Both the position numbers and the translations under genes were made by a program. Shown piece after piece: positions 3,606 to 53,455 of a stretch of 64,000 nucleotides of DNA; position 1 is the stretch's first letter, and each line of letters opens with the position of its first letter. The notes beneath the pieces are model-generated. The model was not told where the DNA came from and searched no databases. It worked only from the letters and a program-made list of their open reading frames with translations. This DNA comes from Citrobacter sp. On2M (GTDB taxonomy: Bacteria; Pseudomonadota; Gammaproteobacteria; Enterobacterales; Enterobacteriaceae). The stretch covers positions 1,240,001 through 1,304,000 of the forward strand of contig NZ_WPCV01000004.1 in the NCBI RefSeq assembly GCF_018035235.1, given 5' to 3'.

Positions 3606-3914
3606 TTATTCCTTCACAACCGACGAATCGGCAGATACCGCAACGTCGGTCGCAGGCGCAAGCTGGTTTTCCAGTCGTTTGGTTTTACGTTCGGCGCGTG
3701 CAAGAGATACACGAACCTTCAGCCAGAACAGGCCGCAAATTAACCAACCAATGGCAAAACCTGCGGCAAACAATACAGCAAGCAGCGTAGAGATACGATA
3801 CTCACCCTGAGCCAACAGGTAATTAAACGTAACCTGTTGATCGTTTTGCGCACCTAATGTCACCGAGATAACAAAAATCGCCAACACCAGTAAGAAAATG
3901 AGTAAATATTTCAC
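3606..3914 (-). CDS. lapA: LapA (YciS), inner-membrane protein, LPS assembly
   Basis: 102 residues with two predicted membrane helices (about residues 3-20 and 43-66), a charged stretch RAERKTKRLENQL after the second, and a short hydrophilic tail. The sequence matches the DUF1049 family member of E. coli that works with LapB in lipopolysaccharide assembly. First gene of the lapAB pair. It begins with ATG, and its mapped heat-shock promoter in E. coli would fall in the 149-base gap upstream. Confidence 0.94.
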   Translation of the reverse strand: MKYLLIFLLVLAIFVISVTLGAQNDQQVTFNYLLAQGEYRISTLLAVLFAAGFAIGWLICGLFWLKVRVSLARAERKTKRLENQLAPATDVAVSADSSVVKE

Positions 3915-10462: not shown

Positions 10463-13060
10463 TTATTTCTTCCCTTCTACCCATTTACCGTCAACGAAGA
10501 ACGCGGACCAGCCGGTCGCCTTACCGTCTTTCTCAGCGGCGACGTACTGCTGCTTGGTTTTACGGCTGAAGCGAACCATGGACTTGTTGCCGTCCGGATC
10601 TGTCTGCGGTGCATCTGCCAAATAGCGCAGTTTTTCCGGTAGACGATCGCGGAAACGGTACAACTCTTCCACCAGCGGCGCACGGGTCTCACGTGATTTC
10701 GGGAACGTATTTGCCGCGAGGAAGATACCTGCAGCACCATCACGTAACACGAAATACGCGTCAGATTTTTCACACGGCAGTTCCGGCAACGGAACCGGAT
10801 CTTCTTTCGGCGGAGCGACTTCACCGTTGCGCAGGATCTTACGGGTATTTTTGCACTCGTCGTTGGTACACGCCATGTACTTGCCAAAACGCCCCATTTT
10901 CAGGTGCATCTCAGAGCCACATTTCTCACACTCAACGATAGGACCGTCATAACCCTTGATGCGGAATTCGCCCTCTTCAATCTCATAGCCATCGCAGGTA
11001 GGGTTATTACCACATACATGCAGCTTGCGCTTAGGATCGATAAGGTAGCTGTCCATCGCCGTGCCGCATTTCTGGCAGCGACGTTTGGCGCGCAGAGCAT
11101 TCGTTTCCGCATCGTCGCCTTCCAGCACGTTCAGTACTTCGTTTTCCGGCACCAGATTAATGGTAGTTTTGCAACGCTCTTTCGGGGAAAGCGCGTAACC
11201 GGAACAACCAAGGAAAACGCCGGTACTGGCGGTACGAATCCCCATCTTGCGTCCGCAGGTCGGACAATCAATGCTGGTCAGCACCATCTGGTTCGGACGC
11301 ATACCGCCCTCTTCAGGATCTTTCTCGGCTTTATCCAGTTGCTGAGTAAAATCAGTGAAGAAGTTGTCGAGCACGCCCTTCCATTCGGCTTCGTGATTCG
11401 CGACCTGATCGAGGCTGTCTTCCATCTGCGCGGTAAAATCGTAGTTCATCAGTTCACGGAAGTTTTCTTCCAGACGATCGGTGACGATTTCACCCATTTT
11501 TTCTGCGTAGAAACGACGGTTTTCCACGCGAACATAACCGCGATCCTGAATCGTAGAAATGATCGACGCATACGTTGATGGACGACCAATGCCACGCTTT
11601 TCAAGCTCTTTAACCAGCGAGGCTTCACTGAAACGTGCAGGCGGTTTAGTAAAGTGCTGTGCTGGCGTCAGTTCGATAAGCGTCAGCGTATCGCCTTTTT
11701 CTACCGCCGGTAAAATGCGGTCTTCATCGCCCTTACGCAGCGCTGGCATTACCTTTGTCCAGCCATCGAAGCGCAGAATACGACCGCGCGCCTTCAGACG
11801 GAAATCACCCGCGTCTACGGTCAACGTGGTTGAGTCGTATTTAGCTGGCGTCATCTGACAGGCAACAAACTGGCGCCAAATCAGTTGATACAGTTTTTGC
11901 GCATCGGCTTCCATGTCTTTCAGCGATTCCGCCTGTACGGCGACATCGGAAGGACGAATAGCTTCATGCGCTTCTTGCGAGTTCTCTTTGCTGGCGTACT
12001 GGTTCGCGCTATCCGGCAAATATTTTTTGCCAAAATTATCGCTGATGTAATCGCGGACCATGTTCACCGCGTCCTGGCTCAGGTTAGTTGAGTCAGTACG
12101 CATGTAAGTGATATAGCCCGCTTCATACAAGCGTTGCGCCATCATCATGGTTTTCTTCACACCGAAACCCAGACGCGTGCTGGCAGCCTGCTGTAGCGTA
12201 GAGGTGATAAACGGCGCGCCCGGCTTGCTGCTGGTCGGCTTATCTTCACGTTCCAGAACGCTGTAGCGCGCTTTTTCCAACAGACTAACGGCGGCAAGCG
12301 TTTGTTCCCGGTTGACCGGACGGAACGGTTTATCATTCTGATGCGTCACCTCGAGCGGTAACGCGTCACCGCCTGGCGTGGTTGTGTTGGCATCAATCTC
12401 CCAGAACTCTTCTGGAACAAATGCTTTGATTTCGCGTTCACGCTCAACCACCAGACGCACAGCAACTGACTGTACGCGACCAGCTGACAGACCACGCGCA
12501 ATTTTTTTCCACAGCAGCGGCGACACCATATAGCCCACAACACGGTCCATAAAGCGGCGCGCCTGTTGCGCATTTACACGGTCGATGTTCAGTTCGCCAG
12601 GTTTTTCAAATGCCTGACGAATAGCGTTTTTGGTAATTTCGTTAAACACCACGCGGCTGTAGCGGGTGTCATCGCCACCGATCACTTCCCGCAGGTGCCA
12701 CGCAATGGCTTCCCCTTCGCGGTCAAGGTCGGTTGCGAGATAGATGTGGTCGGCTTTTTCAGCCAGTTGCTTCAGTTCAGAAACCACTTTCTCTTTACCG
12801 GGCAGCACTTCATAGCGCGCATCCCAGTTGTGCCACGGGTCAACACCCATACGGTTGACGAGAGCGCCACGTTCATCCTTTTTGGGCTTTTTAGCCGTTT
12901 TGGTGGAGGTTGAGTCGGCGCTCTTTTTAGTTGCTGAGCCACTGGTCGGCAAATCACGGATATGACCGACGCTGGATTTCACCACGTAGTCATTACCCAG
13001 ATACTTGTTGATCGTTTTGGCTTTTGCCGGGGACTCAACGATGACAAGAGCTTTACCCAT
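10463..13060 (-). CDS. topA: DNA topoisomerase I TopA
   Basis: 865-residue type IA topoisomerase that relaxes negative supercoils. Start chosen at the ATG of [15 protein letters not shown], preceded by AAGGTG; a GTG two codons earlier is in frame but redundant. Toprim domain at the N-terminus (VIVESPAK...[13 protein letters not shown]), catalytic tyrosine in [10 protein letters not shown] near residue 319, and three C-terminal four-cysteine zinc elements ([26 protein letters not shown]) followed by the zinc-ribbon-like tail. Same size as E. coli TopA. Confidence 0.98.
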
Positions 13061-13458
13061 ATTCACCTTTACCTAATTTGATTCTTCCAGAATGCGTCGC
13101 ACGTTGATTCACCTTCCACTGGCGACGAGACATCGATATGGTCTCTGCGTCGGCGGATATCAACCCCTTAAACTGATTCGCGCTTGCAATGTAACTCTCA
13201 TATAACTGAGTTAACAGGCTTTTTTGCTCACAAACGCTATAGCACGACGAAGTATTGGTCGAATGTCAAGCAAATCTGTTGCCAGATTGACGAAAGCGTC
13301 ACACTGTACCTGATAAAATGCGTTACGCAACTTTATTAGCATGCAAAAACAAATATCGCCAGTTGTAACACCGCCGTAAAACCTTCATTTATGTCAGGGA
13401 ATATTTGCCCATAAGCTGGGCTCAGCGTAGACTAATGTCCTTGTTTAAGGAGTAAATC
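13061..13458. promoter_or_regulatory. Divergent topA-yciN control region
   Basis: About 400 bases between topA (leftward) and yciN (rightward). In E. coli topA has several supercoiling- and heat-responsive promoters in this interval. A long leader is likely here too. I did not find individual boxes that I can defend. A clear AAGGAG lies seven bases ahead of the yciN ATG. Confidence 0.5.
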
Positions 13459-13723: not shown

Positions 13724-13810
13724 TTGCCGGATGGCGACTGAGCTTAATCCTGCCTACGTTAGTGCATATCTGTAGGTCGGGTAAGACGCGTTTGCATCGC
13801 CACCCGGCAA
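13724..13810. repeat. REP/BIME element between yciN and sohB
   Basis: Begins with TGCCGGATGGCG and ends with the inverted arm CGCCACCCGGCA. The centre carries TAGGTCGGGTAAG, typical of enterobacterial REP pairs (BIME). It lies between two convergent genes, the usual location. Confidence 0.88.
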
Positions 13811-13817
13811 TGAAGAT

Positions 13818-14864
13818 TTACATCAGAGGTTTCTGTCCCCGCTGCCACCAGCGCATCAGCAAACGGTCAGCGCTCTCCGCCGCACTACCGGTGAAACGAT
13901 CCATCAGTTTTTTACGCTGCAGGTAACGTACGTTTAATACCTCGCGGCCTTCCATCAACCCGAGGATCACCTCATCGCTGGTATTGATCTCATCCACTAA
14001 CCCATTTGCCAGTGCTTGTTGACCAAACCAATGTTCCCCTGTGGCAACCTGCTCAATGTCCAGAGTCGGACGCATGCGCTGCACAAAATCTTTAAACAGA
14101 TGATGCGTTTCGTTCAGATCTTCGCGGAATTTCTGCCGCCCTTCTTCCGTGTTTTCACCGAGTAAAGTCAGCGTACGTTTATACTGTCCGGCGGTATGCA
14201 GCTCGATATCAATATCTTTCCCTTTCAGGAAACGGTTAAAGTTCGGGATCTGCGCGACGACGCCAATAGAGCCGACGATAGCAAACGGCGCCGAGACAAT
14301 TTTATCCGCCACGCAGGCCATCATATATCCGCCGCTGGCAGCGACTTTATCTACCGTGACGGTTAGCGGGATCTGCTTATCGCGCAAGCGTTGTAACTGC
14401 GAGGCGGCCAGACCATAGCCATGTACCACGCCGCCCGGACTTTCAAGACGAACCACCACCTGGTCCTGAGGTTTAACGACCGCCAGCACCGCTGTAACCT
14501 CTTCGCGTAATGCGCTGACCTCATGGGCATCCATACTGCCTTTAAAATCGAGAACCCATACCCGAGGCTTATCAGATAACGTGCTGTCTCCCTGTTTCGC
14601 TTTAGCCTTAGCCGCTTTCGCCTCCAACTTATGTTTCTTTTTCTGCGCCTTGTGCCAAAGTTTTTGCTGATGCCCATCTAACAGGGCCAGCGACAGGTCT
14701 TCCTTCATCTCTTTATATTGATCGCTGAGATTAATAACCCGTAATTCTCCACGCTGACGTTTGCGTTGTGTCGCATTTACAATCAGCATCACCACCACCG
14801 CGATAGCCACGACGACAGTGACAATTTTTGCCAAAAACAGCCCATATTCAGACAACAATTCCAC
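13818..14864 (-). CDS. sohB: SohB, membrane-anchored S49 peptidase
   Basis: 348-residue protease of the SppA/S49 family facing the periplasm. One N-terminal membrane helix (about residues 5-30, LFLAKIVTVVVAIAVVVMLIV) is followed by a charged linker rich in Lys (KAQKKKHKLEAKAAKAKAK) and the S49 domain, with catalytic serine in AASGGYMMACVA. Start taken as the GTG of VELLSEYG, matching E. coli MELLSEYG and preceded by AAGGTGGG; another GTG lies three codons upstream. Multicopy sohB suppresses degP (htrA) loss in E. coli. Confidence 0.95.
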   Translation of the reverse strand: MELLSEYGLFLAKIVTVVVAIAVVVMLIVNATQRKRQRGELRVINLSDQYKEMKEDLSLALLDGHQQKLWHKAQKKKHKLEAKAAKAKAKQGDSTLSDKPRVWVLDFKGSMDAHEVSALREEVTAVLAVVKPQDQVVVRLESPGGVVHGYGLAASQLQRLRDKQIPLTVTVDKVAASGGYMMACVADKIVSAPFAIVGSIGVVAQIPNFNRFLKGKDIDIELHTAGQYKRTLTLLGENTEEGRQKFREDLNETHHLFKDFVQRMRPTLDIEQVATGEHWFGQQALANGLVDEINTSDEVILGLMEGREVLNVRYLQRKKLMDRFTGSAAESADRLLMRWWQRGQKPLM

Positions 14865-24944: not shown

Positions 24945-25750
24945 TGGAACGTTACGAAAACCTGTTTGCACAGCTGAAGGACCGCAAGGAAGGTGCTTTT
25001 GTCCCCTTCGTCACCCTGGGCGATCCGTCTGTTGAACAGTCACTGAAAATCATAGATACGCTGATTGAAGCCGGTGCCGACGCACTTGAGCTCGGCATTC
25101 CATTCTCCGATCCGCTGGCTGATGGTCCAACCATTCAGGAGGCTACACTGCGTGCGTTTGCCGCAGGCGTTACGCCGTCACAATGCTTTGAAATGCTGGC
25201 CCTGATTCGCCAGAAGCACCCGACGATTCCCATTGGCTTGCTGATGTATGCCAACCTGGTGTTTAGCAAGGGCATTGACGAGTTTTACGCTCAGTGTGAA
25301 AAAGTGGGTGTAGATTCTGTATTAGTGGCCGATGTTCCCGTTGAGGAGTCCGCGCCATTCAGAACGGCGGCACTACGTCATAGCATCGCACCCATTTTCA
25401 TTTGCCCACCGAATGCCGATGAAGAGCTACTGCGTCAGATTGCCTCTTATGGCCGAGGTTATACCTACCTGCTTTCACGAGCAGGAGTGACCGGTGCAGA
25501 AAACCGTGCGGCACTACCCCTGCATCATTTAGTCGAAAAACTGAAAGAATATAATGCTCCGCCTTCTTTACAAGGCTTCGGTATTTCTGCGCCTGAACAG
25601 GTAGCCGGTGCAATTGAAGCTGGCGCTGCTGGCGCGATTTCCGGCTCGGCGATTGTGAAAATCATTGAGAAGAATGTTGCGGCACCAGAACAGATGCTGG
25701 CTGAGCTGAAAGCGTTTGTCAGCGCGATGAAAGCCGCTACCCTACAGTAA
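24944..25750 (+). CDS. trpA: Tryptophan synthase alpha chain TrpA
   Basis: 268-residue TIM-barrel lyase that splits indole-3-glycerol phosphate and channels indole to TrpB. Catalytic Glu and Asp are in [16 protein letters not shown] (about residues 47-62); the phosphate site is near GFGIS and [10 protein letters not shown]. One-base overlap with trpB, last gene of the operon. Confidence 0.98.
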
Positions 25751-25757
25751 GTTAATT

Positions 25758-25785
25758 AAACCGCCAGAGGCTTCTGGCGGTTTTA
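25758..25785. terminator. trp operon terminator, shared with convergent gene
   Basis: Stem CCGCCAGA/TCTGGCGG (25761-25768 with 25773-25780), flanked by AAA and TTTT. The right edge overlaps the stop codon of the convergent diguanylate cyclase gene. Confidence 0.9.
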
Positions 25786-27252
25786 CTCCCTGGCCTGCTT
25801 CATTTTGTACATGGCCGTATCCGCATTCTGGATTGCCGCATCCAGATCACCCTTCACCTCTGCAATCCCCCACGACACTGACAAGGGTATAGTATTGCCT
25901 TCCACTACAAATACATGGCTGGTCACCTGTCCACTTATACGCTCCGCAATTGCGACCGCATCACTGGCCTGAGAGCGAAACAGCAGGATCATAAATTCAT
26001 CTCCGCCGGTGCGAATCACAAGATCGTGGCTGGTACGGGTGTTAGACAACATTCTGTTGGCGATAATTTGCAGCGCACGATCCCCTGCTGCGTGCCCCCA
26101 GGTATCATTGACGGCCTTAAACTTATTGCAATCCAGTAACACTACCGAGCAATGTGATAAATCCCGGCGTTTGATAATGTCGAGAATTCGGCGATTAAAA
26201 CAGCTGGTCAGCGTATCAATATAAACTTTCAGGTCGCTTTCATTCAGCCATGATTTTAGCGAGAAAGTAATGATGATGAAAAAGAACGGCGCCAGCAGAA
26301 TAACAATACCGGCTTGCGTATCGCGCGCCATGAAACGGCCTAATGATATCGAATAGTGCAGCGCATATTTTTCTGAAAAATTGCGCACCAAATAGCTGGA
26401 TTGTCCCGCACATTTGCCGGATAAGCAGAGGCTCTCTTTGTTGGTCAGATTCACCAACTCAACGTTCAATCCGGGAAGAATTTGATTATCAAACGCCTCT
26501 GCCAACGCTTCCTTCAGCTCGGGTTTCGAATGATCATAGACCAGATAGGCCACGATTTGATCTGATATCTCTTTACCAGAAAGATCGTAAATATAGCTCA
26601 CCACGCTGTAGGCTTTTTCACCAGTAATTTTATCGGTATAGAAGTTTGTTGAACTTAGGGCTTTATTTTTGACGTTTTTTTGCAACAACCGGGTATAGAA
26701 ATCGACGGGAGGATAGAAAAAATGAGTAATATCCATCGCCATTTCGGAGTCAGAAAAACTAAAATTGCGCGAGTCGGAAGCCATAAACCAGTAAAAATAA
26801 TCTGAATTGCTGGCGATAATGTAACGGTGCGCATCGAAACTGCCTGGATTTAGCTCATTAACCATTCCACGAATGAACTCCGCTGCAGCATACATACACA
26901 GCGCATTATGGCTGGGTTGCTGAGCAATAATCGTCCCTGTTGCAGAATGAACCCGCTTTGGGTCGGCGTTAATTCCCCATTCATCTTTATTTCGTGGAAC
27001 AAACTGTGCCATAACACCACACTGTTCGCCGGTTTTGATGTGGTAGTAACGCTCGCCAATCGCATCGGCAATCAGTTCATTATCGTTAAAAATATCCAAC
27101 ATGTGAGCTTGCAGGCGGCTAACGCCTTCACTGGCGGCCGCCATACGCTGTTCATAAATGATAAACAGAAACAACGAGGTAAAAACCAACGTAATGAGCC
27201 CAGATACCAGCAGAGCCTGCCTGTTTCGGAGCTTATCCTGCACAATCTTCAC
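25783..27252 (-). CDS. Membrane-anchored diguanylate cyclase (GGDEF domain)
   Basis: 489 residues. A membrane helix (about residues 14-34), a roughly 275-residue periplasmic sensor of unknown ligand, a second helix (about 313-331), then a GGDEF domain from about 340. The active loop reads RTGGDEF (416-420) and the metal/substrate segment LDCNKFKAVNDTWGHAAGD is intact, so c-di-GMP synthesis from two GTP is expected. The inhibitory I-site RxxD is replaced by TSHD (407-410), suggesting loss of product inhibition. The periplasmic part contains several cysteines (C78, C119, C276, C281). GTG start after GGGGGGA. The layout resembles E. coli DgcJ/DgcI, but the sensor does not match them. It stands where E. 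coli has yciGFE. Confidence 0.88.
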   Translation of the reverse strand: MKIVQDKLRNRQALLVSGLITLVFTSLFLFIIYEQRMAAASEGVSRLQAHMLDIFNDNELIADAIGERYYHIKTGEQCGVMAQFVPRNKDEWGINADPKRVHSATGTIIAQQPSHNALCMYAAAEFIRGMVNELNPGSFDAHRYIIASNSDYFYWFMASDSRNFSFSDSEMAMDITHFFYPPVDFYTRLLQKNVKNKALSSTNFYTDKITGEKAYSVVSYIYDLSGKEISDQIVAYLVYDHSKPELKEALAEAFDNQILPGLNVELVNLTNKESLCLSGKCAGQSSYLVRNFSEKYALHYSISLGRFMARDTQAGIVILLAPFFFIIITFSLKSWLNESDLKVYIDTLTSCFNRRILDIIKRRDLSHCSVVLLDCNKFKAVNDTWGHAAGDRALQIIANRMLSNTRTSHDLVIRTGGDEFMILLFRSQASDAVAIAERISGQVTSHVFVVEGNTIPLSVSWGIAEVKGDLDAAIQNADTAMYKMKQARE

Positions 27253-27438
27253 GAGTCCCCCCGATAGTTAACAGTATCACCAAACCGGTTACCCGTTTAT
27301 GTTGTTGCATAACAGCGTTGTACTTGGATAAAAATGTTAACTATCCAGAGACTAATGAGTTGAAATAGTAAGCGCACTCGTGCACGAAAGTTACAGGTTT
27401 ATACAATAAAAGAACATTTTTGTTAACATAAATGCAAA
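27253..27438. other. AT-rich gap ahead of the diguanylate cyclase
   Basis: 186 bases between the two leftward genes, with AT-rich sequence likely holding the cyclase promoter. No assignable motif or gene. Confidence 0.4.
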
Positions 27439-27714
27439 CTAATCATCACCTTCAATCGGATACCCTGCACGACGAATGGCCTCACGACAGTCGCTCACGC
27501 CTGCGGCATAGCCCGCCTCAATCTCGCAAACCGGACTGGCGCTGCAGTAAGGCAGCGTGATCGTTACGGCAAGGCTCTTCTCTAGAATTTCAACCTTGTT
27601 CATGTATTTCAATAACTCGCGCGCAGCATACACGGCAAACTCTGCCGTATCATCGTTTATGGATGCTTCCAGAAGGGAAATTTTGTGTTGCAGCTGGTGA
27701 CGGGTCAACCTCAT
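27439..27714 (-). CDS. Hypothetical protein, 91 residues
   Basis: Not recognised. Start chosen at MRLTRHQLQHKIS because AAGGGGA lies six bases ahead of it; the frame is open 15 codons further up, but those would cover that ribosome site. The N-terminal half is helical and charged with heptad-like leucines (HKISLLEASINDD, then RELLKYMNKVEILEK). The second half contains CEIEAGYAAGVSDCREAIRRAGYP, with three cysteines. No membrane helix. It lies 129 bases outside the 34-bp duplication that bounds a prophage scar, and phage or accessory origin is possible but not shown. Confidence 0.6.
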   Translation of the reverse strand: MRLTRHQLQHKISLLEASINDDTAEFAVYAARELLKYMNKVEILEKSLAVTITLPYCSASPVCEIEAGYAAGVSDCREAIRRAGYPIEGDD

Positions 27715-27792
27715 CGTCAATCCCCTTAAAGCCAGTTTGCTTAAAGAGTAGCATCTCATCGAATTGAGGAAAGGCAGGGAGTGAAAACGGAC

Positions 27793-27836
27793 AATAAAAA
27801 AGCTTACCAGGAAGCGATCAGCCTTTCAGCTTTTGA
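27793..27836 (-). terminator. Possible ancestral ompW terminator
   Basis: Read on the minus strand, AAAAGCT and AGCTTTTTT bracket a short loop and end in a T-run, just beyond the first copy of the ompW 3' end. Before the prophage inserted, this would have followed ompW. The inner stem is weak. Confidence 0.35.
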
Positions 27837-27842
27837 ATCACT

Positions 27843-27876
27843 AACTTAGAAACGATAACCCGCAGAGAACATAAAC
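27843..27876. repeat. 34-bp direct repeat of ompW 3' end, copy 1 (probable att site)
   Basis: 33 of 34 bases match 28858-28891. On the minus strand it still encodes the last residues of OmpW (FMFSAGYRF and stop), although no ompW reading frame precedes it. This is the mark of a phage or island that inserted into the 3' end of ompW and restored it with its own copy. Confidence 0.85.
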
Positions 27877-28048
27877 CTCCGCTTTGGGCTGTGAGTTTTT
27901 CGTTTCATTGCAAATGTCTCCCTTGATTAAGGACAGCGTTGCATCTTTATAAGTGGGGAAGCTCTGGGGAAATAATGGGGAGAAACACCGCCCAAATACA
28001 GAATTTGCCAGACATGGTAGCTGCTGTGTGTAGTCGATGATGAAAAAC

Positions 28049-28078
28049 CGGGTGCCTGCTGACATCCACAGACACCCG
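28049..28078 (-). terminator. Terminator-like hairpin in the prophage remnant
   Basis: On the minus strand a 10-bp stem with one mismatch (28069-28078 with 28049-28058) and a 10-base loop is followed by GTTTTT. No recognisable gene precedes it on that strand; a 77-codon frame (27927-28160) that spans it shows no family resemblance. Confidence 0.55.
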
Positions 28079-28258
28079 TAATCACACAGCAGTGCATATT
28101 GGATACGCTATATCCGTAGCGAGTGGGTAGATTTATAGTCATTTCGAAGCCGGTTGTCATTAAATCTTTGTGATTGATATCTAATATTTTTAACTAAAAT
28201 AACAGGTGGGGCTGAGGGCGATTTCGGTATCGCTTGATCCTGAATTCCCCGACAAGCA

Positions 28259-28405
28259 ATGTTCGTGGAACGGGTTTATGACAAAAAGAATTTTGATGGT
28301 CTGCCAGATGCAAAAGATATCATTCTGGGCGAGTTGACTGAGAGGATTCACCGGATCTTCCCCGATGCTGATGTTCGGGTTACACCGCCTTTTAGCATTA
28401 TCTGA
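28259..28405 (+). pseudogene. Truncated DinI/MsgA-like protein gene
   Basis: 48-codon frame starting MFVERVYDKKNFDGLP and continuing ELTERIHRIFPDADVRV. This is the N-terminal half of the DinI/MsgA family (usually about 80 residues), small proteins of phages and enterobacteria that modulate RecA and the SOS response. After DADVRV the frame departs (TPPFSII) and stops, so the C-terminal helix is missing. No good ribosome-binding site is seen. It lies in the prophage scar. Confidence 0.8.
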
Positions 28406-28569
28406 AAGTGCAGGCAGCCCCGTCATACATGGCTGAATTATTGATATTTATCATATATGTTCCCTCCTGCTCATGACATAAAGAATGGGCATCAGGAACA
28501 GTAGTGGTGCTAAGCCTGGTGAAACACGCCTTTCTTGATTGGATCATAATTGCTTTGACTCATATTCGG

Positions 28570-28692
28570 GCTGTGTGTGGCCCATTTTTTTAGTGTTATT
28601 TGTGGAGTTTACCTACCCGTAAATTCCCTGAATAACAATAAAAAGTTGAATAACATGCAAGCATTGGGGCGTCTTATCGCAGCCCCTTTTTT
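28570..28692 (+). terminator. Two terminator-like sequences in the prophage remnant
   Basis: GGGC...GCCC followed by ATTTTTTT (about 28570-28592), and GGGGC...GCCCC (28666-28686) followed by T9. Short stems, but both have strong T-runs on the plus strand. Confidence 0.45.
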
Positions 28693-28702
28693 TTTATAAT
28701 GA

Positions 28703-28864
28703 TTTGCGAAAGGTATCCAGAGTATCTTCAGGGAGCAAGATGTCGACACACAAATTTTGTTGGGCCATAGCAGTAAAGTTATGACCGATCGCTACAACGA
28801 CACGCGTGTAAAAAAATGGAAAAAAAACTGGTCATTTGATGACCAGTTTTGCAGAGGAACTTAA
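28703..28864 (+). pseudogene. Phage integrase, C-terminal remnant
   Basis: A frame without start codon that reads FREQDVDTQILLGHSS then KVMTDRYNDTRVKKW. LLGHSS followed by MTDRY is the conserved end of tyrosine recombinases, with the catalytic tyrosine in DRY. Everything upstream of about 50 residues is lost. The frame ends inside the 34-bp repeat, as integrase genes often do next to their attachment site. Confidence 0.85.
28823..28853. terminator. Terminator after ompW
   Basis: Stem ACTGGTCA/TGACCAGT with a five-base loop. On the minus strand it is followed by eight T residues, so it ends ompW transcription. The sequence is inside the integrase relic, i.e. brought by the prophage. Confidence 0.85.
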
Positions 28865-28891
28865 AAACGATAACCCGCAGAGAACATAAAC
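28858..28891. repeat. 34-bp direct repeat, copy 2, forming the present ompW 3' end
   Basis: Matches 27843-27876 at 33 of 34 positions and encodes the current C-terminus of OmpW. With copy 1 it defines the attachment-site duplication. Confidence 0.85.
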
Positions 28892-29514
28892 ACCCACGGA
28901 TCGAGGCGTACACTGTCGCTATAACGGGCTTGCGGCAGAACAGCACCATTAGATTTGTACTTCGCAGTAGTATCGATATCCATGTACCAGACTGACATAT
29001 TAATCAACCAGTCGCGGTTGATCAGATAATCCATACCAACTTGCCCTGCTGCACCCCAGGAATCTTTCAGGCTCAGATCCGATAAACCGATTTCTTTACC
29101 GTTATTGTTAAAACCTTCATCGAAGAAAGTGGTGTAGTTCACCCCGACACCAACGTAAGGACGCAGTTTGCTGCTGGAATCACCGAAATACCACTGTGCC
29201 ATTAAGGTTGGCGGTAAGTGGTGAACGGTCGCAATATCACCTGTTGCGGCAGTGCCAATCTTATGGCGGAACGGCGTAGCGGCCAGGAGTTCTACACCGA
29301 TATTGTCGGTTGCCATATAGGTAAATGTCAGCCCCAACTGGGTGTTATTGCTGACATTGAAGCCACCCAGACTACCCAGCGTGCCACCTGCGCCTTCCGT
29401 CGGTCTGACGGTGGCAGAACCCGCACGAATAAAGAACTCTCCGGCTTCATGCGCAAATGCGTTACCAGAGAGAAGAGTTGTTAAAGCCAATGCTGCAACT
29501 GTTAATTTTTTCAT
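28861..29514 (-). CDS. ompW: Outer membrane protein OmpW
   Basis: 217-residue eight-stranded beta-barrel. Signal peptide MKKLTVAALALTTLLSGNAFA, then HEAGEFFIRAGSATV; the last residue is the aromatic Phe required for barrel assembly. OmpW forms a narrow hydrophobic channel and is a colicin S4 receptor in E. coli. Start at MKKLTV, preceded by GAGCGG. Two FNR-like sites upstream fit its known induction without oxygen. Its extreme 3' end lies in a prophage attachment repeat. Confidence 0.97.
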   Translation of the reverse strand: MKKLTVAALALTTLLSGNAFAHEAGEFFIRAGSATVRPTEGAGGTLGSLGGFNVSNNTQLGLTFTYMATDNIGVELLAATPFRHKIGTAATGDIATVHHLPPTLMAQWYFGDSSSKLRPYVGVGVNYTTFFDEGFNNNGKEIGLSDLSLKDSWGAAGQVGMDYLINRDWLINMSVWYMDIDTTAKYKSNGAVLPQARYSDSVRLDPWVFMFSAGYRF

Positions 29515-29617
29515 GTCCGCTCCATCGTTATGGTTATAAAAGCGGAACGAATATACCCACATTGGAGTAATAAGTGATCAAACCTGGATCACATTGACTT
29601 TGATAATTTAACATTTA

Positions 29618-29631
29618 TTGATCCAGATTAA
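29618..29631. promoter_or_regulatory. FNR-like site upstream of ompW, proximal
   Basis: TTGATCCAGATTAA matches TTGAT-N4-ATCAA at nine of ten positions. It lies about 110 bases from the ompW ATG, and 45 bases from a second such site. Confidence 0.65.
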
Positions 29632-29662
29632 GTTAGAACTTGCATTCAAAATCCTGGTTAAA

Positions 29663-29676
29663 TTAATTCAGATCAA
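29663..29676. promoter_or_regulatory. FNR-like site upstream of ompW, distal
   Basis: TTAATTCAGATCAA (reverse TTGATCTGAATTAA), nine of ten positions. Its centre is exactly 45 bases from the proximal site, which fits the two FNR sites described for E. coli ompW. Confidence 0.62.
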
Positions 29677-29856
29677 TTTTGATATATTTTCACCTCGCAA
29701 ATACCCCTCGCATTTTTGCCTTTCAGACGATGTTTTTTGGTCGCGATGCGCAAATAACACACAGCGCTCTGGCATGATGCTGAACGGATAGTCGAAAATT
29801 ACCAGGGCTTTACAAAGATATGCTTTTCCATACATCGCGTGATGCTGCCACTGTAG

Positions 29857-30657
<801 letters not shown>

Positions 30658-53251: not shown

Positions 53252-53336
<85 letters not shown>

Positions 53337-53370
53337 TTATTCAGCTAGTTCACAAAATCAGTATACCCCA

Positions 53371-53455
<85 letters not shown>

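Follow-up and report, generated by a model that had tools for sequence, protein, structure and literature searches.

The gene ompW is a published phage attachment site in Escherichia coli (PMC8112680). In the available text of that paper, the ompW prophages of E. coli are bounded by attL and attR of 121 bp, and the phage-borne copy is 81% identical to the E. coli ompW. The window, by which we mean the whole 64,000-nucleotide stretch of Citrobacter sp. On2M DNA that was analysed, resembles the PPompW prophages as described in that text (PMC8112680) in the attachment gene, the kind of integrase, the duplicated ompW 3' end and the hairpin at the end of the integrase gene. It differs from them in that the element is a remnant of about 1 kb, the host is a Citrobacter, and 34 bp of the repeat are left. 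The scar in the window is a further case at a known attachment site, and the site itself is not new.

The main text of PMC8112680 does not contain the terms 'amino acid', 'C-terminal' or 'OmpW protein', so the paper apparently does not take up the change in the protein. The nearest precedent found for an attachment segment that supplies codons is e14 in icd of E. coli K-12, for which the available text of PMC11148124 describes an exchange that makes two conservative replacements in the enzyme. The ompW case is unlike e14 in icd, since here an extracellular loop of an outer-membrane receptor is replaced, with a change of length in some alleles. No description of a prophage-altered OmpW end was found in the titles and abstract openings searched, a literature from which subscription papers were mostly absent.

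The ompW site and the element remnant in Citrobacter

A search for direct repeats in positions 27000-30000 recovered the two copies listed in Table 1, which match at 33 of 34 nt (97%), as a model had reported from the letters alone (hereafter, the sequence-only reading), and have a start-to-start distance of 1015 nt; the three remaining families in this interval were all of 13-20 nt. Both copies encode FMFSAGYRF and a stop codon on the minus strand, their sole mismatch being a synonymous Phe codon, and the right copy alone lies at the end of a complete ompW (PF03922), again in agreement with that reading. Its main proposal, a prophage scar that identifies the 3' end of ompW as an attachment site, is now supported by empty sites, by prophages and by relatives of the integrase.

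Positions 27400-29600 were used as query against 17 Citrobacter genomes, including the one that contains the window (G000, contig C5). In 9/17 genomes (G002, G003, G004, G005, G008, G009, G010, G012 and G016) query parts 1-477 and 1460-2201 abutted with an overlap of 31-33 bp and a single repeat copy, which is the arrangement that had been predicted for uninvaded relatives, that is, one copy followed by the sequence now found left of 27843. The sites of the other eight (G000, G001, G006, G007, G011, G013, G014 and G015) were occupied, with extra DNA between the flanks amounting to about 1 kb in the window, 1.7-2.5 kb in G001, G007, G011, G013 and G015, 12.5 kb in G006 and 72 kb in G014. Among these eight, the left repeat copy was present in G000 and G011 only; it was not found, at up to nine substitutions, in the stretches fetched from G001, G006, G007, G013, G014 and G015.

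Prophages with two copies of the repeat at ompW, also predicted, were found as well, in E. coli (PPompW), in G014 and in G294, a genome of a different genus of the same family; the latter two regions were read in parts. In G014 a second copy lies 52 kb from ompW and has its own integrase remnant and hairpin. In G294 two cores lie 42.2 kb apart and an open integrase frame of the ompW-phage type adjoins ompW, an arrangement that, judged from the two ends read, would fit an intact prophage. In a draw of 392 genomes from the family, the core pattern occurred in 57 and the hairpin-plus-core pattern in 6. The hairpin-and-core matches of Enterobacter cloacae (L057) and Lelliottia (L055), which are without GTTTTGCAG-type repeats, were judged to be native terminators and set aside, so that not all of the 10 hairpin-and-core matches are elements.

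The interval between the repeats, of about 1 kb, is a decayed lambdoid prophage, in which an eroded right arm is joined to the end of the integrase gene (Table 1). Among the ORFs scanned there, an integrase end and a DinI piece were the only ones recovered, and none corresponded to the structural, replication or lysis genes of an intact prophage. The counterparts of the right arm in locus L035 of G001 lie at 12750-13003, 13213-13264 and 13778-14253, and the segment was taken for a phage right arm because the neighbouring ORFs in G001, as judged by eye, are tail-fibre-like, UmuD-like and otherwise phage-like. The half DinI-like gene had been recognized from the letters alone, and its identity was upheld by the PHROG match, while against PF06183 it reached 22.3 bits, below the gathering threshold of 24.2, over profile positions 4-28 of 63. 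Its truncation, as a part of the scar, was rejected: DinI is cut at the identical point in another phage-like region of G001, so that the loss predates the scar.

The integrase remnant consists of the last ~100 nt of the gene. Its frame, 28703-28861, reads ...FREQDVDTQILLGHSSKVMTDRYNDTR..., and it shares 29/36 residues with the C-terminus of the full-length integrase that adjoins ompW in G014 and carries PF09003 and PF00589; the comparison with phage integrases suggested by the sequence-only reading thus returned clear relatives. The fragment itself had no Pfam match, and its PHROG matches were weak for integrase (E 0.004 and 0.009), with a family of unknown function at 1e-6. The tyrosine-integrase end was correctly identified from the letters, and its run into the repeat has a different origin: intact integrases beside ompW (G014, G294 and E. 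coli) stop inside the hairpin, and in the window a frameshift in the A-run that precedes the hairpin carries the frame on into the repeat. At six of the eight occupied Citrobacter sites, no more than ~100 nt of the integrase gene are left ahead of the hairpin. In the window both prophage ends appear to survive, with the middle lost.

Several smaller observations were made around the remnant. A stretch of about 50 bp to the right of the left repeat copy (27893-27945), not obviously coding, recurs at 83-87% identity at another place in the genome (C5:554989-555038) and in several relatives. The elements carry one to three GTTTTGCAG-like repeats between hairpin and core, of which the window keeps one (28846-28854); these are possibly arm-type sites of the integrase. 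Between trpA and ompW the window has a gene for a GGDEF diguanylate cyclase (25783-27252, minus strand) and a small ORF, and E. coli DH5alpha has yciGFE there. No Rfam family was found across 25700-30000, and the tRNAs of the window lie only at 53252-53455.

Table 1. Features at the ompW site, in coordinates of the window
Feature	Position	Strand	Basis or remark
Host flank gene, small conserved ORF	27439-27759	-	Joined directly to ompW at uninvaded sites
Orphaned ancestral ompW terminator region	27770-27842	-	Apparently weakened
Left repeat copy; attR-side duplicate, of which 34 bp survive	27843-27876		Relatives have ~113-121 bp
Eroded lambdoid prophage right arm	27946-28729		85-91% identity, same order, to L035 (G001)
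Half DinI-like gene	28259-28405	+	phrog_189, E 2.8e-7
Deletion junction, right arm to integrase end	~28720-28729		G001 homology ends at 28729, integrase homology starts at 28721
3' remnant of lambda-Arm type tyrosine integrase gene, frameshifted	28721-28823	+	Integrase homology
Element-derived terminator behind ompW	28820-28850	-	Inverted repeat and folds
Right repeat copy, within ompW	28858-28891		Repeat search
ompW, 217 aa, probably chimeric	28861-29514	-	PF03922, E 2.6e-76, profile 1-195 of 195
Loop 4, +5-residue type, codons A184-S201	28912-28965	-	Alignments
Likely strand-exchange site	28967-28990		GTAGTATCG-ATATCC-ATGTACCAG, imperfect inverted arms; assigned by homology

Position of the exchange and loop 4 of OmpW

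The 34 bp had been proposed as the core shared by prophages at ompW, and this claim was not sustained, since the repeat of the relatives is of ~113-121 bp and the exchange takes place at its far end. Counted from the start of the aligned core, the two copies of G014 agree up to position 113 and diverge from 114, and those of G294 show two differences up to position 113 and diverge from 114. In PPompW_132418, attL compared with the K-12-type ompW (DH5alpha) has 26 differences at positions 13-85 and none at 86-169, whereas attR has 2 differences up to 113 and diverges from 114. This pattern of attL, attR and attB places the exchange between positions 86 and 113, inside ompW. The exchange block of E. 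coli reads ..TATCGATATCCATGTACCACACTG, with short inverted arms; the exchange position was derived from attL, attR and attB of the E. coli PPompW, from G294 and from G014, and the corresponding site in the window was found by its sequence. The 34 bp are the far end of the duplicate, the remainder of the left copy being gone, and a full repeat of ~113-121 bp with its exchange site is not present in the window, where the left copy stops after 34 bp. With attR truncated in this way, excision from the scar is not expected.

The view that today's OmpW C-terminus and terminator were supplied by the element was retained in the present analysis and widened, as the element probably supplied about 40 codons, including the extracellular loop 4. 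The window ompW is ~80% identical to that of E. coli, and its product matched the E. coli OmpW structures (PDB 2f1t, 2f1v and 2mhl) at E about 1e-115, the two proteins belonging to the same barrel family and differing in the last loop, which is five residues longer in the window. In the best of five models (mean pLDDT 74) two strands, 180-188 and 196-204, are joined by a turn at 189-195. By the established topology of the OmpW barrel, the turn between strands 7 and 8 is extracellular.

Loop 4 of the window, TAKYKSNGAVLPQARYSDSVRL, was found in 0/16 other Citrobacter genomes, whose loop is TASYK[L/M][A/G]G[A/V]QQ[H/R]D[S/N]VRL, five residues shorter. In length and at both ends it agrees with TAKYKSDGRKLAKGSYSDNVRL, a phage allele of E. 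coli. Compared with two empty sites, ompW of the window was 86-94% identical in the body and 61-63% in the loop; against the empty site of G002 alone, the values were 90-94% for the body and 63%, with a 15-nt gap, for the loop. We infer that loop 4 of the window probably came with the phage. The displaced host loop is unreadable in the window, where only 34 bp of the left copy remain.

The relation between loop and prophage was surveyed in 5,426 complete E. coli genomes, a junction being called at a probe coverage of at least 80%. The probe that joins integrase end, hairpin and ompW identified 1,697 genomes, and the probe that joins the native left flank to ompW identified 3,406; 5,107 genomes were matched, and the two classes together account for 5,103, leaving 323 in neither. 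OmpW ends were read at 12 E. coli loci, a non-random set picked from listings that comprised eight junction genomes, three uninvaded ones and one with an insertion sequence. The eight junction genomes carried three phage loops, AKYKSGVTTVKDSVRL (P1), AKYKSDGRKLAKGSYSDNVRL (P2) and ASYKFNGTPVKDAVRL (P3), and the three uninvaded loci carried the loop ANYKLGGAQQHDSVRL; a fourth phage loop, KASYKLNGAPVKDSVRL, was found on a viral contig. In strain 200112 the ompW body (531 nt aligned) is identical to that of DH5alpha, while the rest is 75% identical and has 15 extra nt, and in PPompW_132418 the host loop is still present, beyond the opposite end of the prophage.

With probes joining a loop to the ompW body, the host loop was recovered at a minimum of 95% in 3,437 records, P1 in 1,037 (with another 639 at 90-95%) and P2 in 270. 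Exceptions on the lysogen side were sought with a probe joining the integrase end to the host loop, which gave, among the matches listed, five full-length records at 96.4% or more; the next in rank, at 94.2%, had the value of known P1 carriers, and further host-loop junction genomes could hide where the integrase end or the ompW body is more divergent. The difference between 3,437 and 3,406, about 31, is a rough upper bound for junction genomes with the host loop, provided that all native junctions carry that loop. On the native side, the flank was joined to the two phage loops covered by this test, P1 and P2, and no full-length match was found among the 3,406 native-junction genomes; the best full-length rows, annotated yciE and ompW, stood at 93.5% and 91.3%, respectively. 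As these ranked first, the records at 95% or above obtained with the same probes (385+9 for P1 and 100+28 for P2) cannot be full-length, and they were taken as lysogens matched over ompW only. The host-loop probe hit 5,971 places in 4,694 records, as would be expected if many genomes carry a displaced second copy. By these counts, lysogeny at ompW in E. coli usually rewrites a surface loop of a known phage receptor.

Of 303 integrase loci, 80 were kept, and most of these end just past the integrase gene, with ompW out of view. Two further kinds of ompW allele were seen in E. coli: in strain KCJ3K291 (L086) a copy of ISKpn26 interrupts the gene within the loop-4 region, and in strains 4/4 and CCUG 73778 (L081 and L082) ompW is a mosaic of a strongly diverged body and the phage loop P1.

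A reading in which the prophage scar is real, and loop 4 of the window nevertheless derives from homologous recombination with another genus or from an old polymorphism, is unlikely. Loops of a similar +5 type are native in three genomes of the family (G076, G140 and G154), and an ordinary host-type loop is present at 7/8 occupied Citrobacter sites, as it is in G294. Against this reading, the loop change falls inside the very segment that the att exchange replaces, the body upstream of the loop keeps its 86-94% identity to the compared Citrobacter empty sites, and in E. coli the loop type closely tracks the prophage junction. The DNA of the window loop is 76% identical to that of G076, 71% to that of G140 and 79% to the E. 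coli phage allele, so that no donor was found among these three (71-79% only), and the loop peptide was not found in the scan of viral contigs. Loops were counted by loci, several of which are overlapping fetches of one genome, and the ompW-body criterion of this count missed two native loci with other loops, L225 and L227; L199 is attR-like.

Acquisition of loop 4 with the phage remains the preferred origin for the window. Given the host-type loops at the Citrobacter sites just mentioned, in G294 and in at least five E. coli junction genomes, arrival of the phage does not necessarily mean a new loop; the change is frequent in E. coli but falls short of a rule. In another host group, the two copies on viral contigs are nearly alike, with only a few residues different (EVKFKAAGEQQNISTRL vs EVRFKAGDQQQNINTRL), and phages may ferry ompW ends between genera.

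The hairpin behind ompW

The hairpin of the window has perfect 12-nt arms (28839-28850 and 28824-28835) and, on the ompW strand, a run of eight U (28827-28820), four of which can pair within the arm; hairpin and U-run, placed after the ompW stop, together form a predicted intrinsic terminator. The hairpin lies beside the core at 8/8 occupied Citrobacter sites, and in G001, G015 and G011 the match to the element DNA of the window begins at the hairpin. The orphaned terminator region on the other side of the scar folds to -13.3 kcal/mol (87 nt), and the 90 nt that follow the stop codon in the nine empty sites fold to between -17.5 and -25.6 kcal/mol.

Twelve distinct hairpins from Citrobacter, Escherichia, Kluyvera, Buttiauxella, G294 and viral contigs were compared. 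Their 96 stem pairs, read on the ompW strand, comprised 87 Watson-Crick pairs, 7 G-U pairs, no A-C pair and 2 other mismatches. Since a G-U pair on the ompW strand is an A-C pair on the integrase strand, seven of the nine imperfect pairs leave the ompW hairpin intact and disrupt the one on the integrase strand, although these seven are non-independent, four of them being at one position and possibly sharing ancestry. The two mismatches disrupt the hairpin of either strand, and none of the nine imperfect pairs favours the integrase strand over the ompW strand.

The hairpin overlaps the end of the integrase gene and, in most variants, folds about equally on both strands, as would be the case if it were the terminator of the integrase gene itself and had persisted by chance, not through its use by ompW. 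We consider this improbable, because the U-run is longer on the ompW side, the G-U pairs stand at 7 to 0 for the ompW strand, and the hairpin is kept where the integrase is gone. From its pattern of conservation we infer that the hairpin was probably retained because ompW needs a terminator, and the comparison suggests that terminators of phage origin can persist after the phage is lost, because the host gene has come to rely on them.

Cargo at the site, proposed history and consequences for OmpW

The trpA-ompW interval is a small hotspot, with cargo that differs by species. In Citrobacter sp. FP75 (G011, L038) an arsR-arsB-arsC operon lies between two ompW repeat copies (1334-1367 and 3791-3824 of the reversed locus), with no integrase frame remaining and only the hairpin left on the integrase side, forming a cargo islet bracketed by att sites. 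A PF00884 membrane protein is the cargo in G001 (L035), and a similar ORF was seen by eye in C. werkmanii (G015, L037); the protein of G001 presumably resembles phosphoethanolamine transferases. The cargo is a YebC-domain protein in C. portucalensis (G007, L036) and a UmuDC-like pair in G013 (L039).

Some occupied sites, rather than being eroded prophages, could be small islets between att sites that a phage integrase mobilized in trans; G011 is an example, having cores at both ends, arsR, arsB and arsC between them and the hairpin alone on the integrase side. That the window is another such islet is quite improbable, since it retains pieces resembling both phage ends, in prophage order, and has a clear deletion junction. 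A 34-bp duplication without any phage, through local duplication or another mobile element, has next to nothing to recommend it: no supporting point was found, the integrase end is identical at 29/36 residues to an integrase at the same site, and the empty sites and the prophages with the same repeat contradict it.

That insertion of a phage at ompW, followed by decay, left a phage-type OmpW end and a terminator in the window is, in our judgement, highly probable. This history takes as observed the repeat, the empty sites, the integrase end, the hairpin, the decay, the loop difference and the exchange position in E. coli, and would run as follows. A temperate lambdoid phage with a lambda-Arm type integrase would have integrated into ompW of a Citrobacter ancestor, the exchange falling within the codons of beta-strand 7 (VWYMDID). 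The attP would thereby have replaced the end of the gene, that is, the extracellular loop 4, strand 8, the stop codon and the terminator, the latter supplied as a hairpin that overlaps the integrase stop and is oriented for ompW, and the host's own ompW 3' end would have been displaced beyond the far end of the prophage. Subsequent deletions would have removed nearly all of the prophage and most of the displaced end, of which 34 bp are left, and would have fixed the phage-type OmpW end.

As regards the possible advantage of a changed loop, OmpW is needed for adsorption of the T4-like phage LC53 in Serratia, according to the available text of PMC10132071, and that of PMC12578640 suggests it as a secondary receptor of an Enterobacter phage. 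Colicin S4 also uses OmpW, with contacts at Asp116, His117 and Glu120 in the available text of PMC5755745; in our own numbering these residues fall outside loop 4, and protection from colicin S4 as the role of the loop swap was weakened by the location of the contacts elsewhere. We propose that a changed loop 4 may reduce the adsorption of competing phages. A more far-reaching idea, which we put forward tentatively and hold to be somewhat short of probable, is that the ompW phages might perform receptor conversion through their choice of site: with the exchange point immediately ahead of the last extracellular loop, lysogeny would swap loop 4 for a version encoded by the phage and add a terminator, and excision would bring back the host loop. 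If this is true, ~31% of complete E. coli genomes (1,697/5,426), bar a few with host-type loops, would be in a phage-written state, and scars like that of the window would represent lineages in which that state was made permanent.

Attachment sites in gene ends are usually called harmless, as the phage restores the gene. At ompW, the end supplied by the phage is often different, and the difference falls precisely on the part exposed to the outside, in a protein that phages and colicin S4 use as a receptor. The scar itself is ordinary, and its value is as a pointer to a loop-swapping attachment site that was not found described in the literature searched. One prophage junction divides most complete E. 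coli genomes into those with a host-loop and those with a phage-loop OmpW, which is relevant to typing and to phage therapy wherever these treat OmpW as invariant.
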